Below, one piece after another: positions 18,029 to 56,200 of a stretch of 64,000 nucleotides of DNA. Position 1 is the stretch's first letter, and every line of letters begins with the position of its first letter. A program made the translations under genes and the position numbers. The notes beneath the pieces are model-generated. The model saw nothing but the letters and a program-made list of their open reading frames with translations. It was not told the origin of the DNA and made no database searches. The stretch is from Eublepharis macularius (lineage: Eukaryota > Chordata > Lepidosauria > Squamata > Eublepharidae), in the NCBI RefSeq assembly GCF_028583425.1, contig NC_072793.1:64609028-64673027 (forward strand), read 5' to 3'.

Positions 18029-45381
<27,353 letters not shown>

Positions 45382-45889
45382 CTAAAATAAAAGTTGGAAA
45401 GAGACAGAAAAGAGACCAGTAGAGAACAAAGTCAGTTCTGTGATTTTAAAAGACTCCTGCTGAGTAATCACATTCCTAATAATATTTAAACCTATATTAT
45501 GGTCCCAATAGTATCTCCATACTAGCCATTGGTTGTAGCCTTACTTGTGAACAAAAACCATTATGGGACATGAGAGTTCAAATTAATACTAGAGAAAAAG
45601 ATTTGATTTTTTCAAAAGGGAAACTGGTCACTGTTTTTTGTCCTATTGTATTTTTGTTTTAACCTGTTAATCCTTTGTACTGGGCAATATATAAAATGCA
45701 AGTGCTCTGCAATAAACTTCCTCAACTACTATCTTAAAGCTGTAATATACAACAAACTGAGCTTCCACCATATACTCTATCATCTCTCTTCTCTTTTTCA
45801 GCATAGCCTGTGATAAAGAATTTTATGAAAGGCTAGCTCCCTCCTTCAAGGTATTTGGTAGATTATAGTAAGGGTATTGTCCTATGACC

Positions 45890-46741
45890 CTGTTTTTTCT
45901 AGAAAAAGAACTGCAGGAACTCATTAGCATATCTCATTAGCATAAGCCACACCCACTGACATCACCGGAAGTGTGTCAGAAGGCACCATCCACCCCTCAG
46001 GCCCCTTTCCCCAAAAATCTCCAGGTATTTCCTTAAAGCAGAATGAACTCAAAGCAGTTTACCCTTCTCTGGAGAGCCAACCTGGCTTGAACACATGCAC
46101 TCACTCACTCTCACAAGTCACAAATGAAAATAAAGCAGCAGAATGAATTCAAAGCAGCTTACGTTCCTTTGGAGGCCAGCCCCACCCAGCTTGAACTCAC
46201 TCACTCACTCACTCTCTCTCTCCTGAGTCATAAATGAAAATAAAGCAACCGAGCAGAATGAATTCAAAGCAGCTTCTGTTCCTTTGGAGCCCAGCCCCAC
46301 TCGGCTTGCACTCACCCACTCACTCATTTTCTCTCTCTCCCCTTCTCTCTCCAGAGTCACAAATGAAAATAAATCAGCAGAACAGAATGAATTCAAAGCA
46401 GCTTATGTTCCTTTGCAGCCCAGCCCCATTCGGCTTGCACTCACTCACTCACTCCCTCTCCCTCTCTCCCACGAGTCACAAATGAAAATAAAGCAGCAGA
46501 ACAGAATGAATTCAAAGCAGCTTACGTTCCTTTGGAGCCCACCCCCATTTGGCTTGCACTCCCTCCCTCCCTCTCTCCCCCCCACGAGTCACAAATGAAA
46601 ATAAAGCAGCAGAGCCTGCTGCTAAAGACAAGGACAGCCAAGAGGGAAAGGAATCACGTGGGCGGGGCCAAAACCCATGTGACCTCTTTTCAGATCTACC
46701 GGAACACTGTTCCGGCATGTTCTGCCTCCAAATGATCCCTG
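45890..46741. repeat. unclassified element containing a minisatellite
   Basis: The start (ctgttttttctagaaaaaga then ggaactcattagcatatctc, gccacacccactgacatcac) and the end (ctaccggaacactgttccgg, catgttctgcctcc) resemble the two ends of the hAT MITE at 8055-8219. The middle is the tandem array 46030-46615. No clear target duplication is seen, so the boundaries are approximate. Confidence 0.5.
46030..46615. repeat. minisatellite, about 110-130-bp units, ~5 copies
   Basis: Each unit has aaatgaaaataaagcagcag, aatgaattcaaagcagctta, gttcctttggag, ccagccccac, ggcttgcactcactc and a variable CT/CACT run ending gagtcac. aaatgaaaat recurs at about 46122, 46232, 46361, 46480 and 46593. Length variation lies mostly in the CT-rich run. 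The open frames on both strands are repeat artefacts. Confidence 0.9.
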
Positions 46742-46989
46742 CCAATAAGTTTTGTTTTATTCATTATGGTATTAAATGTCTAACACCCTGTAGCTCATGT
46801 GAATAATAATATATTCAAAATATTGGATTGAAATGTGTTGAGTTAGAATGTTAAGAGTCTTTTTGTTAGAGTTGGAATGTTGAGAGTCTTTTTGCATTTT
46901 CAACTTTTGATAAGCAATGCAGTTTTGACATAAAAATACATGCTCTGTTGTCTTGGCCAGAAGATTAAACAAGCAGAGGCAGAAAATAT

Positions 46990-47368
46990 TCTGGCTGATC
47001 ATCATCCTGTTCAGCATCTCAAAACAAAGCAACATGGCCCAAGTGCTGTGGAACTGTAAGTTCATTGCACCATGGCACTTAAGGGGTGTTTAGAGGCACT
47101 GAGCATAACCCTCAAAGATGTCAGGGGCAGTGATGGGGGGAGTCACCGTGCCGCTGGCTGGAAACTTCCAGCAGACTCTGCCAGTCGTTCCAAGGGGAAC
47201 TAGAGCTGATGAGGTTACCGTGTGTGTCAAGGCTTCGTATCTGTGGCCCCTCATCAGGAAACTCTCACTAAGAAAGAACATGAGAGTCCACTTGAGAGGC
47301 GAGGTGACTGCTGGGGAATTCTTTGAACTCCTACTAAAAATAGGGGACGGAGTGTATCGTGACCATCC
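46990..47368 (+). pseudogene. Helitron helicase fragment, motif II-III region
   Basis: Reads ISKQSNMAQVLWNCKFI, then CTMALKGCLEAL, then GGVTVPLAGNFQQTLPVVPR followed by GTRADEV and LSLRKNMRVHLRGEVTAGEF. GNFQQTLPV corresponds to the helicase motif that is usually GDFRQ(I/T)LPV, here with Asp to Asn. A WDE-type motif II is missing through a small deletion before CTMA. Frames are broken, so it is a pseudogene. It stops at the hAT insertion. Confidence 0.8.
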
Positions 47369-47376
47369 CTGCAGGC

Positions 47377-48852
47377 CAGGGTGGATAAAAATCAATGATT
47401 TTTTTTAAAAAATCTGATTTTTTTTAATTTAAATCAGATTTTTTAAAATAAAATGCTTTTTGAGGAAAATATATTACCATCCAAAGGTTATTCCATCATG
47501 AAATAAAGATTAGTTTTTAATTATGTAGAATAAGGCTGTATATGTTTAATTTTTTTGGTAAATAAATTCCATTAATCCATTCACAAGGTCATGCTCTTCC
47601 AGAGGTTTTTGTGAGATTATTGGGCAGTTTCTCTGCCTACAAGATATTATTCCGATGACAGTTTGTGAACAAAATCGAGATAAAATAGATGGCACTGTCA
47701 CGGCCAAAATCCTCAACATTGGGCTTAAGAGAAATTTTGAACATATGCTGAGCATCCTGAAACCCATCTCTGAAGCTTTAAACAAAATACAGAAAAATAG
47801 CTGTTTTATTGCTGTTGCTGTTGAAATTTGGAAGGAACTGAGTGAACACTTGAAAACAGAACTACACATGGACAGAATTAAATTACAAGCATTAAAAAAA
47901 CGAACGGAACAGGCACTGTCTCCAGCTCATTTTTTTGGCAAATATTGTCAATATCCAGTACCAGGGTCAAGTGCTGAGGAAGAGGAGTTAGCTATGACAT
48001 GGGTATCCAGCAATCATCCATCTGTAATGCCAACTATAATAAACTTCAGAGCTAAGGGGGAACCATTCAAGAAATATATGATTGCTGAAGATATTTTAAA
48101 GAAAGTCACACCAGTGAACTGGTGGAAGTCACTTAAGCACTTGGATTTAGAGACTGTTCAAGTAATGATTTCACTTTTAACAGCAGTAGCTTCTTCTGCA
48201 GGCGTTGAAAGAATATTCTCTTCCTTTGGACTCATTCATTCTAAACTGAGAAATCGTTTGGGACCCAATAAAGCAGGAAAGCTTGTTTTTCTTTTCCAGA
48301 TTATGAACAAAGAAGAAGATGAAGATGACGAGTGAGCTACAGAGGACAGTATTTAAGTTTTTCATGTGTAGGCTCGGCTGACAGTCTAAGTTTCTTAAAA
48401 TATATATATTTTGTTTAGCCAAATTAGTTAACAAACATGGATGTTTGTTTAAGCAAATAACATGCTGTAATGTTATTGTTTCAGTTGAATAAATAAAACT
48501 ATTTAAATTGTTATTATTAAGGTAATGATTATTTTTCTCCTTCCAATAAAGTACAACCGAAAAGTTGTCCAAATATGAATGATTAACCTAAACTGGGGAT
48601 AATTCATCTCACAATAAATTAACTATAATGTGTTTCTAATAGTATTAAAATCAATATTTTATACAACTGTAAAACTAATATGAAAAGTTGTTATTCTAAA
48701 AATCTTCATCTACTTGCATATTAAAGTTATACCAGCAAGAATTAGTCTTTATGTAGAAAACTATGATTTAAATCAAGCCTTACTGACTAGTGATTTAAAT
48801 CGTGATTTTAATCGTGATTTAAATCAGTTTGATTTAAATCAAATCCACCCTG
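47377..48852 (+). mobile_element. hAT transposon, internally deleted, perfect 8-bp target duplication
   Basis: 1476 bp. The ends are CAGGGTGGAT at both termini in inverted orientation (left CAGGGTGGATAAAAATCAA, right reverse-complemented CAGGGTGGATTTGATTTAAA), with many subterminal AAATC/GATTT words. The duplication ctgcaggc is at 47369-47376 and 48853-48860. It codes only for the C-terminal part of a hAT transposase. It sits inside Helitron helicase sequence, so it is younger than the Helitron. Confidence 0.93.
47655..48335 (+). CDS. hAT transposase C-terminal part with dimerisation domain
   Basis: An intact 226-residue reading frame. The last third contains SAGVERIFSSFGLIHSKLRN then RLG, the hAT C-terminal dimerisation (hATC) signature, preceded by VNWWKSLKHLDLETVQVMIS. 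The tail is acidic (NKEEDEDDE). The zinc-finger BED domain and the first catalytic Asp region of a full-length hAT transposase (typically 600 or more residues) are missing, so it should not transpose alone. In-frame codons continue upstream of the first Met for some distance, which suggests that Met is not the ancestral start. No stop or frameshift lies within 680 bp. Confidence 0.8.
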   Translation: MTVCEQNRDKIDGTVTAKILNIGLKRNFEHMLSILKPISEALNKIQKNSCFIAVAVEIWKELSEHLKTELHMDRIKLQALKKRTEQALSPAHFFGKYCQYPVPGSSAEEEELAMTWVSSNHPSVMPTIINFRAKGEPFKKYMIAEDILKKVTPVNWWKSLKHLDLETVQVMISLLTAVASSAGVERIFSSFGLIHSKLRNRLGPNKAGKLVFLFQIMNKEEDEDDE

Positions 48853-48860
48853 CTGCAGGC

Positions 48861-49118
48861 CTGGGCACAGTAGTGATCTAGTAGACCTAACAGCCACTAT
48901 ATACTCTGATATCGTCACTATCACAGTGAAGTCCATGGATTGGCTGTGCAAGCGTGCCATTCTGACCCCCAAGAACGACAAGGCTGCCATCATTAATGAA
49001 AAACAACTCCCTCGAAAGGGTAGAAATGGAGTACAGATCTGTGGACTCAGTGGTGCAAATGGATGATGCATTCCACTACGCTGCGGAGTTTCTCAACACG
49101 CTCAACCCTCCTGGCTTC
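48861..49118 (+). pseudogene. Helitron helicase fragment, middle
   Basis: Reads DLVDLTATIYSDIVTITVKS then MDWLCKRAILTPKNDKAAII NEK, and after a frameshift VEMEYRSVDSVVQMDDAFHY and EFLNTLNPPGF. This order (…RAILTPKND…, then …EFLNTLNPPGFPPH-type) is the PIF1-like domain of Helitrons. It begins directly after the hAT duplication and ends where L1 sequence starts. Confidence 0.8.
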
Positions 49119-51567
49119 CAGTTGTTTGAAGGTTTTTCTTCTTTTCCCTGGTGAGTTTAATCCATTAATGTCGGTTGAAAAGATTTTTATTGGTTTCTGC
49201 TCCATTATCTTTTTCCTTTGTTGGTATCATCCCTTTTTTTTCTTGTTTCTCTCATTGGCTTCGGTTTCTGGTTTGTGTTCTTCTGTTCTGAAGGTCCTTC
49301 CTCTTCTTCAGATGCTGTTGAATGGTCTTGAAGTGCAGTCTCTTCTTCTTTTTCCACCTCTCCTTCATTTTTGGTTCTCTTTTTCTCTCCATCTATCTGT
49401 TCTCCTCTCCTTCCATGTCTTTCCATAAAGTTTTCCATCTTGTGTATAGACAATCTTAAATCTTTGTCCTTCGTATTGAAAAAAACACTCCTTCAGGTAT
49501 TAACCATCTAAAGGGGATTGATTCTTCCTTTAATTGGGTTATAAGGGGGGCATATTCTTTGCGTTTCTCTCTTACTTTCCACAGGATTTTCCTTAGGACG
49601 CTTATCTCTTTACCGTAAATTTTCGATGGTTTATCCCGCAACGTGTTCCATATATGTTCTCTCGTTGCACGTCATACAAATTTAATATGGACTTCTCTTG
49701 GTATCTTATTCTTCTTTGTGTATAATGAGATGACTCTATATATTAGGTCAATTTCTTTAGCCATCTCCTCTGGTTCCTCTTCCAAAAAGTCAGCCAGGGC
49801 TTCTGTAAATTCTGTCCTTAAATCTTCATTTCCCTGTTCTATTACATTCTGGCATCTTATAACGAGTGAGGCTTTTCCCATTTCTAGTCCCATTAGGGAG
49901 TTCCAAGCAATGTCTTGTTTAGAGGCTACTTTTTCTGTTTTCTGGCGTGTTTCCTCACATTTTTTATCTATTGTTTGAATTTGTCCCATCATATCTTGGG
50001 ATATGCGTTTATTTTCTGCCATTTGCATCTGGAAGTCATTCATTTCCCCCTTAAGTTCTGACACTTCTGTGTTCAAACTCGCCATTTGTTGTATCACTTG
50101 GTTTAGTGCAAGGTTGATTTTATCCATCCCAGTCTGAAACATCTCTCTTGAGGCCTTTTGAGCCTCTGTCTCTGCTTGCTGCATCATTAGTGTGGTAGAT
50201 TTAGTTTGGGCTGGAGAGGTAGGTGCTGAAGAGGAAAGACCTGAGTTCTTGCCTCTTCCCTTACTCATTATTTCTCTCAAAAGTTAACCCTTATATTCAG
50301 AACAATTCTTACTTTAGACCTATCTTTCTTTCCTTCAAATTCTTATTTCTTGTATAACCAGTTTTACAATTATTATATTACAATACCCATTGTTCAATAC
50401 ATGCATTCAGTAGCAAAAATCACTATTTCTTTTATCTTATACATATGTATCCCCCCTGCATATCAGTTTATATGGAAAGTCTGCAGATATTTATAGTTGC
50501 ATGTAGTGTTACCAGTTATCCACAAAGTGGCAATGTTGGATCACTATTTAAAGTTCCTTCTGTTTTTTCTTTCCTCCAAAGTTTCGTTATCAATTTATTC
50601 CTACGCTTTAATCTTTGGATGACTCAGTTTCCATGTTCCATTACTCCGATTCTTCTAACTCCAGCAACGCCTTCCAGAATATGAGAATAATACAATTCCA
50701 ATCAAACGTTATAAATCCACTTGCAAGGGGTATGGAGAGAGAGTCACAAGTTTTAAAGTTCCAATTAATGTTCTTTTTTCCTCCAAAAAGTAACTCCAGT
50801 CAGGGGGGAAGAAGAAAACAAATGTGATTAAGTCTATTCCCTAGCAAATAACTTCAACTCCAGGAATGAAATGTCCAAAATATAGAGAGTAAGGACCAAT
50901 AAAGGGTGCAAAATGAAAAAGAAATTGCGCTGGAAAATATTCCAGGAAGATTAGCTCGTTCCAAAGAGTCTGTCCTCTCACTGGCTAGGATTCCAATTAT
51001 CCAGTCTCAAAAAACAAGCAAGGTTTAAAGGAGTTAAAAGAGAAAGTCCATTTTATAAACTTTTACTTATTTAAGTCTTCTGTTTTCAATTAAATATAGC
51101 AGAGCCAAGAAGCATAAAAAGAACAACAGATAGCTCCTTCCAGTAGAAAGCCGCTGCAAGGGAGGGGGGAGGGGTGCCAATCTATCCCTCTCCCTTTCTT
51201 CAATCTTTTTCGAGCAGTATTTTAAAGGCTTTGGCATTTCTTGGCAATTAAACTCACAGTTCAGATGGAGGTATAAATCCCGTCTCCAACGACAAGCAGA
51301 AAAAAAGGAAGAAAAGTCCATTAATTCGTACCAGCCGTCTCAGCTAATCGCCCATCAGGACGCCTGCATCCACCCTGCCACTAGGAATTGGTCCTGGGTC
51401 AAGCCCTCGTCAGCTGCTACTGACAAGAGCGACCACGCAGGATTACTCCCCAGCTTTTTGACATTCTCCAGATATCCTTTAGGGGTGTTTAAACCCCCTG
51501 GGTGGGGCAGTTCAGTCCCCTCTAGAGCAGAGCTCTGAGGTTGCTGCTTCACTCAGCCATATCCGGA
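49119..51567 (-). mobile_element. L1 LINE, 5' part only
   Basis: On the minus strand: 5' UTR (51567 to about 50281), ORF1 (50280 to about 49205) and the first codons of ORF2 (about 49200-49120, KPIKIFSTDINGLNSPGKRR). There is no reverse transcriptase, no 3' UTR and no T-run on the plus strand at the 49119 junction. Both junctions lie within Helitron helicase coding sequence, of which a central stretch is missing. Confidence 0.8.
49205..50280 (-). pseudogene. L1 ORF1p (RNA-binding trimer protein), frameshifted
   Basis: The first segment 50280-49672 (202 residues) has a Ser/Thr-rich N-terminus (SKGRGKNSGLSSSAPTSPAQ), a coiled coil over residues ~45-125 with Gln/Met/Lys heptads, and an RRM-like part (LVIRCQNVIEQGNEDLRTEF, KNKIPREVHIKF). 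After a frameshift, 49641-49456 gives the C-terminal domain (LRKILWKVREKRKEYAPLIT, IPFRWLIPEGVFFS). The end 49453-49205 is a charged Glu/Lys tail. The domain order is that of L1 ORF1p, which coats L1 RNA. At least one frameshift makes this copy non-functional. Confidence 0.85.
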
Positions 51568-51648
51568 AGTGTCTCCACCAGCAGCCTGGTGATCCTAGCA
51601 CCTGAGGGGAAAATCCCCAATGAGGTCTACAAAGAGGTTCTTCAGTAG
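51568..51648 (+). pseudogene. Helitron helicase C-terminus with stop
   Basis: 27 codons: SVSTSSLVILAPEGKIPNEV then YKEVLQ and TAG. The (ACS)RVSxxSNLVILAPEG...NVVYKEVL pattern is the last motif (VI) and C-terminus of Helitron helicases. The ACSR part just upstream is lost at the L1 junction. Confidence 0.8.
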
Positions 51649-52119
51649 AAAAAAAAGATTGTACGTATTTTTCACTTTATTTATTGCACTACAATCTATT
51701 CCTTTTAAAATCTCTTTAATAAATGTTACATTTTGAAAATCACTTCATCAGTTTTCGGCATTTAACACGCTTCGCTTTATTCAAACACCTTTGTGAAGCT
51801 CGGGTACTATGCTAGCATTCCTGTCCTCTACCCTCACACAGCAGTTAGTCTGTGGAGCGGAATTTCAGAATTTAACTTCCACATTGCTGTTTCTCACCAT
51901 CAGAACACTAGTAACAACATTAATTTTATGCCCCAAACAGTTTCCATATGGACTGTGTGATGTATGAACAAGACTCAAAATAAATATGCAGCAAAAGGGA
52001 AAAGCTGTTCCCTTACCACTCTTTAATCATTCTGAGCGTGTGCTTGATACTTAAAAGGGCTTAAGACAATGACGCTCATACTTTTTGAAGACTTAGGAAA
52101 TGGCCATAGACTGATGGCT

Positions 52120-52275
52120 AAACTACACATTACGCTTTACATGAGTTTGCCAACGGGCCTTCTTCCCATACCATTTGTGGGAGCCAAAATGGCCTGGGAA
52201 CCACAGGGGCTGTATTTTGCCCCCTTTGGCAGTCGGTCCCCATTGGCAACTCATGTAAAGCATAATGTGTACCTG
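52120..52275. repeat. MITE-like inverted repeat element
   Basis: acacattacgctttacatga then gtttgccaac on the left, and gttggcaa-type cattggcaactcatgtaaag then cataatgtgt on the right, form about 30-bp inverted ends around a 90-bp GC-richer core. No coding capacity. Target duplication not identified. Confidence 0.65.
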
Positions 52276-52611
52276 TGGCACTATGTCTAACTGTCGTTCA
52301 TGCTACTGGTAACTGGGATCAGATCAGGCCCCCGGGAATGAATGAGACTGCAGGGTGAAGGAGGAGAAAAAGAGAGAATATGAGAGCTCCACACTTGCCT
52401 TTTCCTTCTGCTGCAGGGAGACACCCAAAGCCTCCTCTACCAGCTCAAAAGTTTGGACCTCGTGACTCTCCTTTGAGAGAGTTGTGACCCACAGTGTAAG
52501 AATCACTGCCTTGAGGATTAATCTGAAACAAACTCTGTATGTTATAATAACTTTTCTTTTTCATGTTTTTGTAACTGTAAAAAAACATACGCTTTGACTT
52601 TCTCATATATG

Positions 52612-52800
52612 AACATATGAATCAGACCAATGGTCCATCAAGGACAGTCTTGTCTCCTCAGACTCGCAGTGACTTCCCAGAGTCTCAGAGGTCACATCAC
52701 CTACCACTAATCCTTTTAATGGGAGATGCTGGGGATTAAACCTGAGACCTTCTGCATACCAAGCAGATGCTCTGCCCCTAAGCCTCACGCCAATCCCTAT
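52612..52800 (-). repeat. tRNA-derived SINE, reverse-oriented
   Basis: Minus strand: gcttaggggcagagcatctg (A box region), cttggtatgcagaaggtctc, ggtttaatccccagcatctc (B box), ttaaaaggattagtggtagg, and an end with gatggaccattggtctgatt, catatgttcatatatg. Both Pol III boxes are recognisable. Related to the fragment at 6590-6712. Confidence 0.82.
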
Positions 52801-53094
52801 CATGCCAAGCTTCATAATGGGCATTTTAGATGTGTCATATAAATAAAGAAGGCCCAGGAAAAACTGGAAAAGTATTTGTTTCTGAAGACTTCTTTTTTCA
52901 ACTTTTCTACTGGAAATTTGGAGGAACACTGGACAGTAAACTCCTGTGAAATATTTTCTCTTTTGGAATGAATTAACTGCTTTTTAAGACAATGCATTAT
53001 TCCTCCAAATGTTCTCTGTGTAGAATGAAGATGTTAATGTGAAACAACACACAGCTTTAGATAATGATAATTCCTGGGCCTACTGTAGACACGT

Positions 53095-53295
53095 GGTAGT
53101 GGAGAGTGTCATCAAGTCATAGCTGACTTATGGTGACTCCCCCCCCATGGGTTTTTTCATGGCAAGAGACTAACAGAGGTGGTTTGCCATTGCCTGCCTC
53201 TGAAACCCTGGTCTTTGGGTCTCCCATCCAATTACTAACCAAGGCCTACCCTGCTTAGCTTCCGAGATCCAGCTCTCCTGGACTCTCACTGTAGC
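53095..53295 (-). repeat. 5S rRNA-derived SINE, copy 1
   Basis: The right part on the minus strand reads gatctcggaagctaagcagg, gtaggccttggttagtaatt, ggatgggagac, that is, the 5S rRNA internal promoter region with few changes. The SINE body continues leftward on the plus strand as gaaaccctggtctttg, ggtttgccattgcctgcctc, agctgacttatggtgactcc, agtgtcatcaagtcatagc. This head-body arrangement matches the 5S-headed SINEs known in squamates. Confidence 0.88.
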
Positions 53296-56200
53296 GTAGA
53301 CACATATAATGTATTTTAAAATATATTTTCTTGTTGATTTGTGACTAATTTTGTTCACCAGTACCGTGACATGCACAACTGATCAATCAATATTTTCAGT
53401 GTTATGTTTAATTCAATATACAAATCTGCTGACAGTTCTTAATATTATAAGAGTTTGAAGACTGTTTAAGCTTAAACAATAAAACTTCTGTTTTCAGTGT
53501 TTATTTTTTCCTACTTTTGACTTGACAAAAACTAAGAAATGTGTGTATAGGCAGCATAGTATTATACATAGTTGAAAGTTTGGTAGAACAAAATGAAGAC
53601 TTTTAAATTTTAGAAACATGACAATAGTTATGAACTTTATGTTGTTAAGGTAGCAAAATAAGTTTGAGAAGAAAATAAATTGCATATATCTCAACTTTTC
53701 CAAAAATGTATTTTTTCCCAAAGGCTTCAAAATTTCCAGAACATCTATATACCTATTTTTTGTAACGTTTTCAGCCAATGAAACCCAATTGCAACCATTT
53801 CCTGGACCAAACAAACACCACAGGAAATAACTTCCATTGGCTTTGACTTCTAAGCTATTTTCTTTAATGCATCACACTCCTTCCTCCAAAAGCAAAATAC
53901 CCTTAGGGAAGCATTTAGGACTTCCTTTGTCCATTGAAGGAGCTTTTACAACAATAGGTAAAAAGCTTCCATCATGTAAGGTGCACTCAGAGGAAGAATG
54001 TAATGGCAAAAAAGCTTTTGTTATTTTTTAATGTATCGATTGGCAAACAACAGGCCAACACCACAGCAACAAAACTAAGGGTAGAGGGAACTAACTTTGA
54101 ATGCCTTTTATATTTTCTCGTAACTTGAATGCACTCACACATGCAACATATGCGTCTTTGTATAAAAACAATCACAATGTCCCTAGTCATACATTAGAAC
54201 TTGGAAAAGGAAGGGCCAAATCAGATATGATGGAGACAGGCCACATAGAGGCCAGCATCCACCCCACCTATAGCTGCCATTTGCCATCTGGAGGCAGGAG
54301 ATCTTCCCTTCAGTGGGACTTTCCTGCTGGCCCACTAGTGACTGGCAAGATAAAAGGTTTTTTTTTTAATTGTCTTCAGTGACTGTGATGTCACTTCCAG
54401 GAAAACAGTCACATGCATGTGAAGCTGCAATTTGGATCAGGGCCACACACAGGAAAGGAACGGGAGATTCAGCCTTTCAGTCCCCGTTTGGTTTTGCTAA
54501 CTGAAACCAGTCTCTCCGTGCTGTTATTAGCACCTTGGGAAATCTTCCTTTCTGACATAGCCCTGATTCAGACTGTGACTGCACATATGCACAATTTACC
54601 TTTTATAGACTGATGGAAGACCCTGTTCTCTCCCCCCCCCACCCCCAAATGCCAAGGACAAAGAAGGCAGCATCAGGCTTGCCAGCTCCCGCTTCTACCA
54701 GATGAAATAAACCTCACCCCCTTCTTGGAATAGCCTAACACACATTCTGCATGGTGGCTCCTACAGTGTGGAAAGGCTATTAGGAAGTCTTCCACATGTA
54801 TCTCATTTTGCAAAATGTGCAAAACAGAAGTATTCAAGAGAGCATTCTTGTAGAAAAGCAAAGCTATAGGGCAATGTTTCAGCTCAGGAAGTGACTTTTA
54901 TTAGGGATGAAGTCTTTCCTACCTTGATTGCCTTACACAGATACGTTTGCATGCATTGTTCTGTTTCCCCCCACCCCTATTCTACAATCCCAGCTGAACT
55001 TCATTTTTGTCTTACTAGGAATTTGTGCTGTTGTATTCAAATGTTATTATCTTGTAATTTCCTCACTGATTGCCTGAAGTTATCATATTTTGTAATCTGG
55101 TTACTAATTAATTGAAAAATTTGGTTCTTTTTTAAATAATTCTTGTAATCCACATTGGATCCTAGTGAGAAAAGTGGACTGTGAAAATAATAAAGTAATA
55201 CCAAGTGTGTAATAATAAAGTAATACCAAGTAATACCAAGTGTGGCAGTATTTTCACTGTAAACTGCTATGTACTACCGAATTATAGCTAGCATGAAAAC
55301 ATTCTCACTCAAAATTTTGGATTTGTAAAAAAATGTAATTTGAATGTATGCAATGCATTAGATTCAGTTCTTCTCCATGGAGTGTGGTAATTAAGGGCCT
55401 CAATTTATAAAGTGCCTAGGGTCTCCACACACCTAAATTCATTCCTAAGGGAATGATTTCTAAGTACAATTCATGGCACAGTTAAAAATCCTGCTCTTGG
55501 ATATATTTATGACTGAGGTGCAAAATAAAAGCTGTAATGACTACAGATACAGATGTTGCTGTGGTGTAATTATGTATGGCCTAAAAATAGAATTAGTAAC
55601 CCCCCCTCCCGCCCCCACTTATCTCTGCAGGAAAACTCATGTGAAAGTCCAATACTATGAGTGAATGATCCCTAGCACTGATACAGGGGCCATGTCACCT
55701 CCATCCTTAAATGTTGCTCTAATGGTTGTCAGAGCAGGTCACATGTGCATTGATTGCCTCTGTTCCCTGCCCATCTTGAATGCAGCTGTTTAAGCAGTGC
55801 AGCTGTTTAAACCAGTGCAGAATCGCATCGAGCAACTGGTCTTTGTAAGACTACCCCTCCCAGGGAAGCTTGTGGGACCCAACACGTGAAGAACACATGT
55901 CTGGCATCTTATGTAGTTTGACTATAAGATGATGCGCTGACAAAATACATTTTCAGAAACTTTGAAGTGGTATTTTGTTCATACATTTTATTTACATCAT
56001 TATTTGTAGCCCACCTTTCTCACTGAGACTCACTCATTTTGAGAGGTTTTAAGAGGGTTTTTTTAAAAAAGATTTTAGTTTTTTCTGCAAACCTAGGACT
56101 TTTTCAGGATGGTAGAAAGAGCTGTCTTGTTTGTTTGTAGCTACAATCTCTGGATTGAAGCCTCCACAGATTAAGCCCTGTTGAGAATTAGATGTATTGA

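Follow-up and report, generated by a model that had tools for sequence, protein, structure and literature searches.

The window, by which we mean the whole stretch of 64,000 nucleotides that was analysed, contains a Helitron remnant at 47003-51814 that is interrupted by two other transposable elements. Three helicase pieces, which are genuine, collinear and derived from one Helitron, are separated by a hAT element and by an antisense L1 fragment. The features of the locus, each with the evidence on which it was placed, are as follows.

47003..47376, plus strand: Helitron helicase piece 1 (PIF1 region), whose last 8 bp (47369-47376) are the first copy of the hAT duplication (Pfam PIF1, genome copies)
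47377..48852, plus strand: hAT element with 10-bp inverted ends, CAGGGTGGAT (duplication, ends, Dimer_Tnp_hAT, Hermes match, empty sites)
48853..49119, plus strand: Helitron helicase piece 2, which opens with the second copy of the hAT duplication (48853-48860) (family copies, collinearity with Helraiser)
49120..51577, minus strand: L1, comprising the 5' region, a broken ORF1 (from ~50268 down to 49456) and ~29 first ORF2 codons (ORF1p match, 5' end)
51578..51814, plus strand: Helitron piece 3, comprising C-terminal codons, a TAG stop codon at 51646-51648 and 3' non-coding sequence to the inner CTA (family copies)
51791..51815, plus strand: inner terminus-like site ending in GAAGCTCGGGTACTATGCTAG, past which the family runs (17/24 positions match the outer terminus)

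The first-pass annotation of this DNA had described a three-layer nest. However, the hAT element and the L1 are neighbours within one Helitron, neither lying inside the other, and the anatomy is that of one Helitron remnant with two separate, side-by-side insertions (i.e., two layers). The outer limits also had to be moved: homology with the family starts at 47003-47006 rather than at 46990, and the first base of piece 3 is 51578 rather than 51568. Relative to the family, the window copy is truncated at both ends, since the missing 3' tail and 5' kilobase are absent from the rest of the window, where a search for them returned a single 24-bp match at 37840-37863. No other copies of 46900-51900 were found within the window, and an Rfam search over it gave 0 matches.

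In the surroundings, self-comparison revealed tandem repeats of ~100-120 bp at 46037-46615, just upstream of the Helitron remnant. By our own reading, a short protein-kinase-like exon with splice-like borders lies on the minus strand at 45340-45390, so the nest may lie within an intron of a kinase gene. As a whole, the stretch is an ordinary, well-supported transposon fossil, in which activity of any component is unlikely.

Helicase pieces

As for the helicase, Pfam recognises PIF1 at 47109-47408 (E 7.3e-16), and when the three pieces are joined into one reading, the match to this family reaches an E of 2.5e-19. The joined reading also matches residues 1143-1338 of Helraiser, in order, with an E of 7.4e-14, the match running through pieces 1 and 2 only. 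The earlier proposal of three collinear Helitron helicase pieces is borne out, and the helicase is of the RepHel type. Piece 3 alone gave no relevant match in Pfam or PDB, where it hit only unrelated structures above E 1; its peptide is in frame after helicase motif VI in 15/20 family copies. Piece 1 is 86-88% identical to the 39 other scored genome copies, while piece 2 is matched up to 49119 by all seven copies compared. A six-frame Pfam scan of 44001-53902 found no Rep (HUH) domain, which makes the element a fragment from a Helitron family and not a coding Helitron.

A match to Pfam PIF1 would also be given by parts of a host PIF1 helicase gene. However, in the structure search the joined reading hit Helraiser, while no PIF1 entry reached E 1, and the many dispersed copies of the pieces in the genome bear Helitron ends. 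We therefore reject an origin from a host gene, which is vanishingly improbable, and treat the pieces as parts of a Helitron.

The hAT and L1 insertions

The hAT element is flanked by a perfect 8-bp target duplication, CTGCAGGC, at 47369-47376 and 48853-48860, as had been noticed in the first pass, and a scan of the window found no second site with an 8-bp duplication and 8-bp inverted ends 0.3-3.1 kb apart. Pfam detects the dimerisation domain Dimer_Tnp_hAT (E 1.7e-8), which covers the C-terminal part of the transposase only, and the element matches the Hermes transposase with an E of 0.00074. It resembles the hAT superfamily, of which Hermes is a solved relative, in its 8-bp duplication, short inverted ends and dimerisation domain, but differs in that the C-terminal transposase part alone is recognisable. 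In 19/20 Helitron copies fetched from the host genome, the insertion site is single and uninterrupted (i.e., empty). The exception is L013, in which the site falls outside the stretch searched; L006, a shorter locus of the same copy, is uninterrupted there. This shows that the hAT element arrived later than the Helitron, by cut-and-paste, leaving the 8-bp duplication, which is the order that had been proposed. No L1 or hAT relatives were found inside the 20 fetched 9-kb Helitron loci.

The L1 fragment lies antisense to the helicase. Its ORF1 reading resembles LINE-1 ORF1p chains (E 0.0013-0.0025), no L1 Pfam family scored above cut-off, and the short adjoining segment, without a match in Pfam or PDB, is what we take to be the first ~29 codons of ORF2. 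When the ends of other genome matches to 51100-51600 were counted (40 of 52 candidates scored), 14/40 fell at 51573-51577, three at 51568-51570 and one at 51584, with 11/40 at 51550-51554 (~24 bp earlier) and 11/40 elsewhere. Since 14/40 end at 51573-51577, we place the L1 5' end there, and it most likely abuts the Helitron at 51578. The fragment is like other L1 retrotransposons in its ORF1p-like reading and in a 5' end common to other copies, which agrees with the identification of L1 5' sequence in the first pass. It differs in being devoid of the rest of ORF2, whose reverse transcriptase domain was not found by the six-frame Pfam scan of 44001-53902, and of the 3' end.

Helicase sequence is missing at this junction, as had been claimed: 17/19 copies in which pieces 2 and 3 could both be placed have 338-376 bp of helicase where the window has L1. 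The two exceptions are L026 (153 bp) and L017 (900 bp), in which piece 3 aligned only partly. The simplest reading is an ordinary L1 insertion followed by a deletion. The two flanks of the L1 have no word of at least 9 bp in common, the longest shared short word being 5 bp, and since no duplication flanks the L1, insertion and later deletion is not the sole possible route. Endonuclease-independent L1 insertion with target deletion is a recognised class, in which an L1 fragment would have been patched into a DNA break in one step. The absence of a shared flanking word, the missing L1 3' end and the loss of target sequence all fit such a patch, but the L1 5' end seems complete, which fits an ordinary insertion, and a later deletion would cover the rest. 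On balance, we consider one-step patching unlikely and retain insertion followed by deletion. Either of the hAT and the L1 may have come first.

The Helitron family in the host genome

Copies were sought in the host assembly (2.24 Gb, 72 contigs). Pieces 1 and 3 gave 966 and 2477 first-look candidates, respectively, which are not copy counts, and 40 of each were scored. Apart from the window itself, 39 scored matches remained for each piece, of which 20 per piece were retrieved, with 9 kb of surrounding sequence for piece 1 and as 3' ends for piece 3, together representing 40 different places. The family unit is ~2.4 kb long. Its 5' end, TCTATATATATAAA preceded by A, lies ~1 kb upstream of the point at which homology in the window begins, and a close match to this end (TCTATATATATAAAGACAAGTGTCC) is present in 14/20 copies. 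In a stricter search, the 5' TC is preceded by A in nine of 11 close matches; the window copy itself is without a 5' end. The outer 3' end, ...GCGAAGCACGGGCATCAAGCTAG, was located in 30/40 copies. Its CTAG is intact in 25 of these, with T as the next base in 25/25, and T comes next in 29/30 overall. The majority sequence of 24 outer 3' ends (31 bases) folds into a 6-bp stem 12 nt before the end, a fold scored without a shuffle control, and among seven single copies folded, one has that stem and one a related stem. Many relatives, dispersed and with Helitron ends, are present in the host.

Pieces 1, 2 and 3 of the window lie at distances of 0.048, 0.082 and 0.044 from the copy majority, compared with copy averages of 0.046 and 0.068 (20 copies) and 0.059 (15 copies), and the window copy looks about as old as the others. 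Some copies are arranged head to tail (L012, L016, L023, L025, L046 and probably also L034 and L045), since their outer 3' end meets the 5' end of the element at once or within a few bases. In the flanks of L010-L047, ATAAA often occurs a few bases past the outer CTAG, which may reflect a preferred target or tandem neighbours that have eroded. A scan for relatives in viral contigs, which sees close relatives only, gave six pattern matches, none of which is a relative. Among the open-licence papers searched, no description of this Helitron family was found.

The Rep domain was found elsewhere in the host genome. Helitron_like_N gave 14 match rows from 40 candidates, at ~10 places, and none in 14 control genomes. 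The best of these, L055 (G000:C2:75282600-75290000, minus strand), carries Rep (E 2.6e-44), PIF1 and Pif1_2B in broken frames; a family 5' end was not found in it. L054, also a Rep place, aligns to L055 at ~85%, and L053, one of three Rep loci fetched, gave no match to L055. Family copies align to L055 on either side of a 2.88-kb block that they do not have. The deletion junction is identical in 20/20 fetched copies, and PIF1 and Pif1_2B are present and Rep absent in 3/3 copies scanned. Consequently, the sampled copies represent one internal-deletion lineage, and L055 is a decayed RepHel Helitron, the structural parent of the Rep-less family, by which the Rep-less copies were presumably mobilised in trans. 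The window copy starts ~45 bp beyond the deletion junction and therefore may or may not be a deletion derivative itself; its piece 1 is 79% identical to L055, against 86-88% for the scored copies.

The closest comparison is with Helraiser/Helibat1 of bats (PMC4778049; PDB 7lcc), with which the family shares a RepHel protein (here in the parent L055). According to the account of Helraiser in PMC4778049, that element likewise starts with TC, ends in CTAG adjoining T and inserts between A and T; its palindrome-like stem lies 11 nt before the end, compared with 12 nt in the family majority. The family differs in that the sampled copies are without Rep, in the moderate protein similarity (E 7.4e-14) and in having a further, decayed terminus-like site that lies ~120 bp short of the 3' end. 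Heligloria, described among horizontally transferred animal Helitrons reported in reptiles and others (PMC6544945, PMC3248570), is of the same class. Accounts of how Helitrons work, of 3'-end bypass, and of the occurrence or transfer of Helitrons in animals, reptiles included, are given in PMC4778049, PMC6544945, PMC3248570 and PMC10379679.

Inner and outer 3' termini

The CTAG at 51812-51815 had been taken as the end of the element. Family copies show that it is not the boundary: all anchored copies run past it, 18/18 in the first set (where anchoring failed for L012 and L018) and 20/20 in the second, continuing with TTATACTACAAAACC-like sequence. The outer CTAG, followed by T, lies ~120 bp downstream. 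Alignment of the window with the 39 other scored copies stops at 51810-51820, and in 28 cases at 51814.

The inner site nevertheless resembles a terminus, with 13/20 positions upstream of CTAG matching the outer end. Among the 354 CTAG sites of the window it comes closest to the outer terminus, the other 353 scoring lower, and 10 of 127,960 positions of any kind reach its score. The exact string GAAGCTCGGGTACTATGCTAG occurs four times genome-wide, window included; two of the other sites lie in copies that continue like the family, and one stops at CTA against another repeat. A hairpin before 51815, considered as support for a boundary, was discarded: 57 of 200 shuffles are as good, as are 124/354 window CTAG sites when the spacing is fixed at 11 nt and 232 when it is left free.

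Could the window copy be an insertion that used the inner CTAG as its 3' end, and be truncated on the 5' side only? Homology stops exactly at CTA with G as the next base, completing a CTAG at the site that best resembles the outer terminus, and the same stop at the inner CTA, with G next, is seen in copy L049. However, the window CTAG is followed by C, as opposed to the T after the outer CTAG in 25/25 intact cases, all 38/38 other anchored copies extend past the site and the hairpin is no better than chance. Moreover, L049 abuts another repeat, one that occurs in L026 as well, and the G of L049 may be part of it. We thus regard use of the inner end by the window copy as unlikely and prefer a copy cut at both ends. 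A 3' break exactly at a terminus-like site is an odd feature of a cut copy, and a counterpoint to that reading, as a random cut predicts otherwise. The repeat itself, which starts near GGCCGATTC, follows the inner CTA in L049 (positions 48-60) and the outer end in L026.

A double 3' end of this kind is present in the parent L055 too, with CTAT at the inner site and GGCTAG then T at the outer, the latter somewhat diverged and missed by the motif search. It therefore seems that the inner site is older than the 2.88-kb deletion, and from its sequence it appears to be a decayed older terminus that was bypassed.

The history that we propose for the locus, and hold with high confidence as a whole, is that of a truncated Helitron copy, a later hAT and a separate L1 with a deletion. 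A Helraiser-like Helitron would have spread in the host genome, and a single 2.9-kb internal deletion of its RepHel parent would have produced the ~2.4-kb Rep-less form represented by the copies sampled. One family copy, now truncated at both ends, would have been left at 47003-51814. A hAT element later inserted into it by cut-and-paste, as its 8-bp duplication and the empty sites show, and an L1 would separately have inserted antisense into the helicase. A deletion would then have removed the L1 3' part and ~340-375 bp of helicase, a loss that is directly visible and whose two-step order we infer.

These findings correct an element boundary that looked convincing from CTAG alone. They also portray a vertebrate-type genome in which few detectable Rep-bearing Helitron loci exist beside many Rep-less derivative copies. 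More tentatively, it is possible, if somewhat doubtful, that the family records a switch of 3' end, in which CTAG and hairpin decayed at an ancestral terminus, GAAGCTCGGGTACTATGCTA, which came to be bypassed in favour of a new CTAG end ~120 bp downstream. The double end of the RepHel parent would place this switch before the Rep-less spread, and the window copy could be a rare one still ending at the inner CTAG. For Helraiser, both 3'-end bypass and head-to-tail neighbours are reported in PMC4778049. If true, the double 3' end, read as such a switch, would be natural, many-copy support for the bypass step described for that element.
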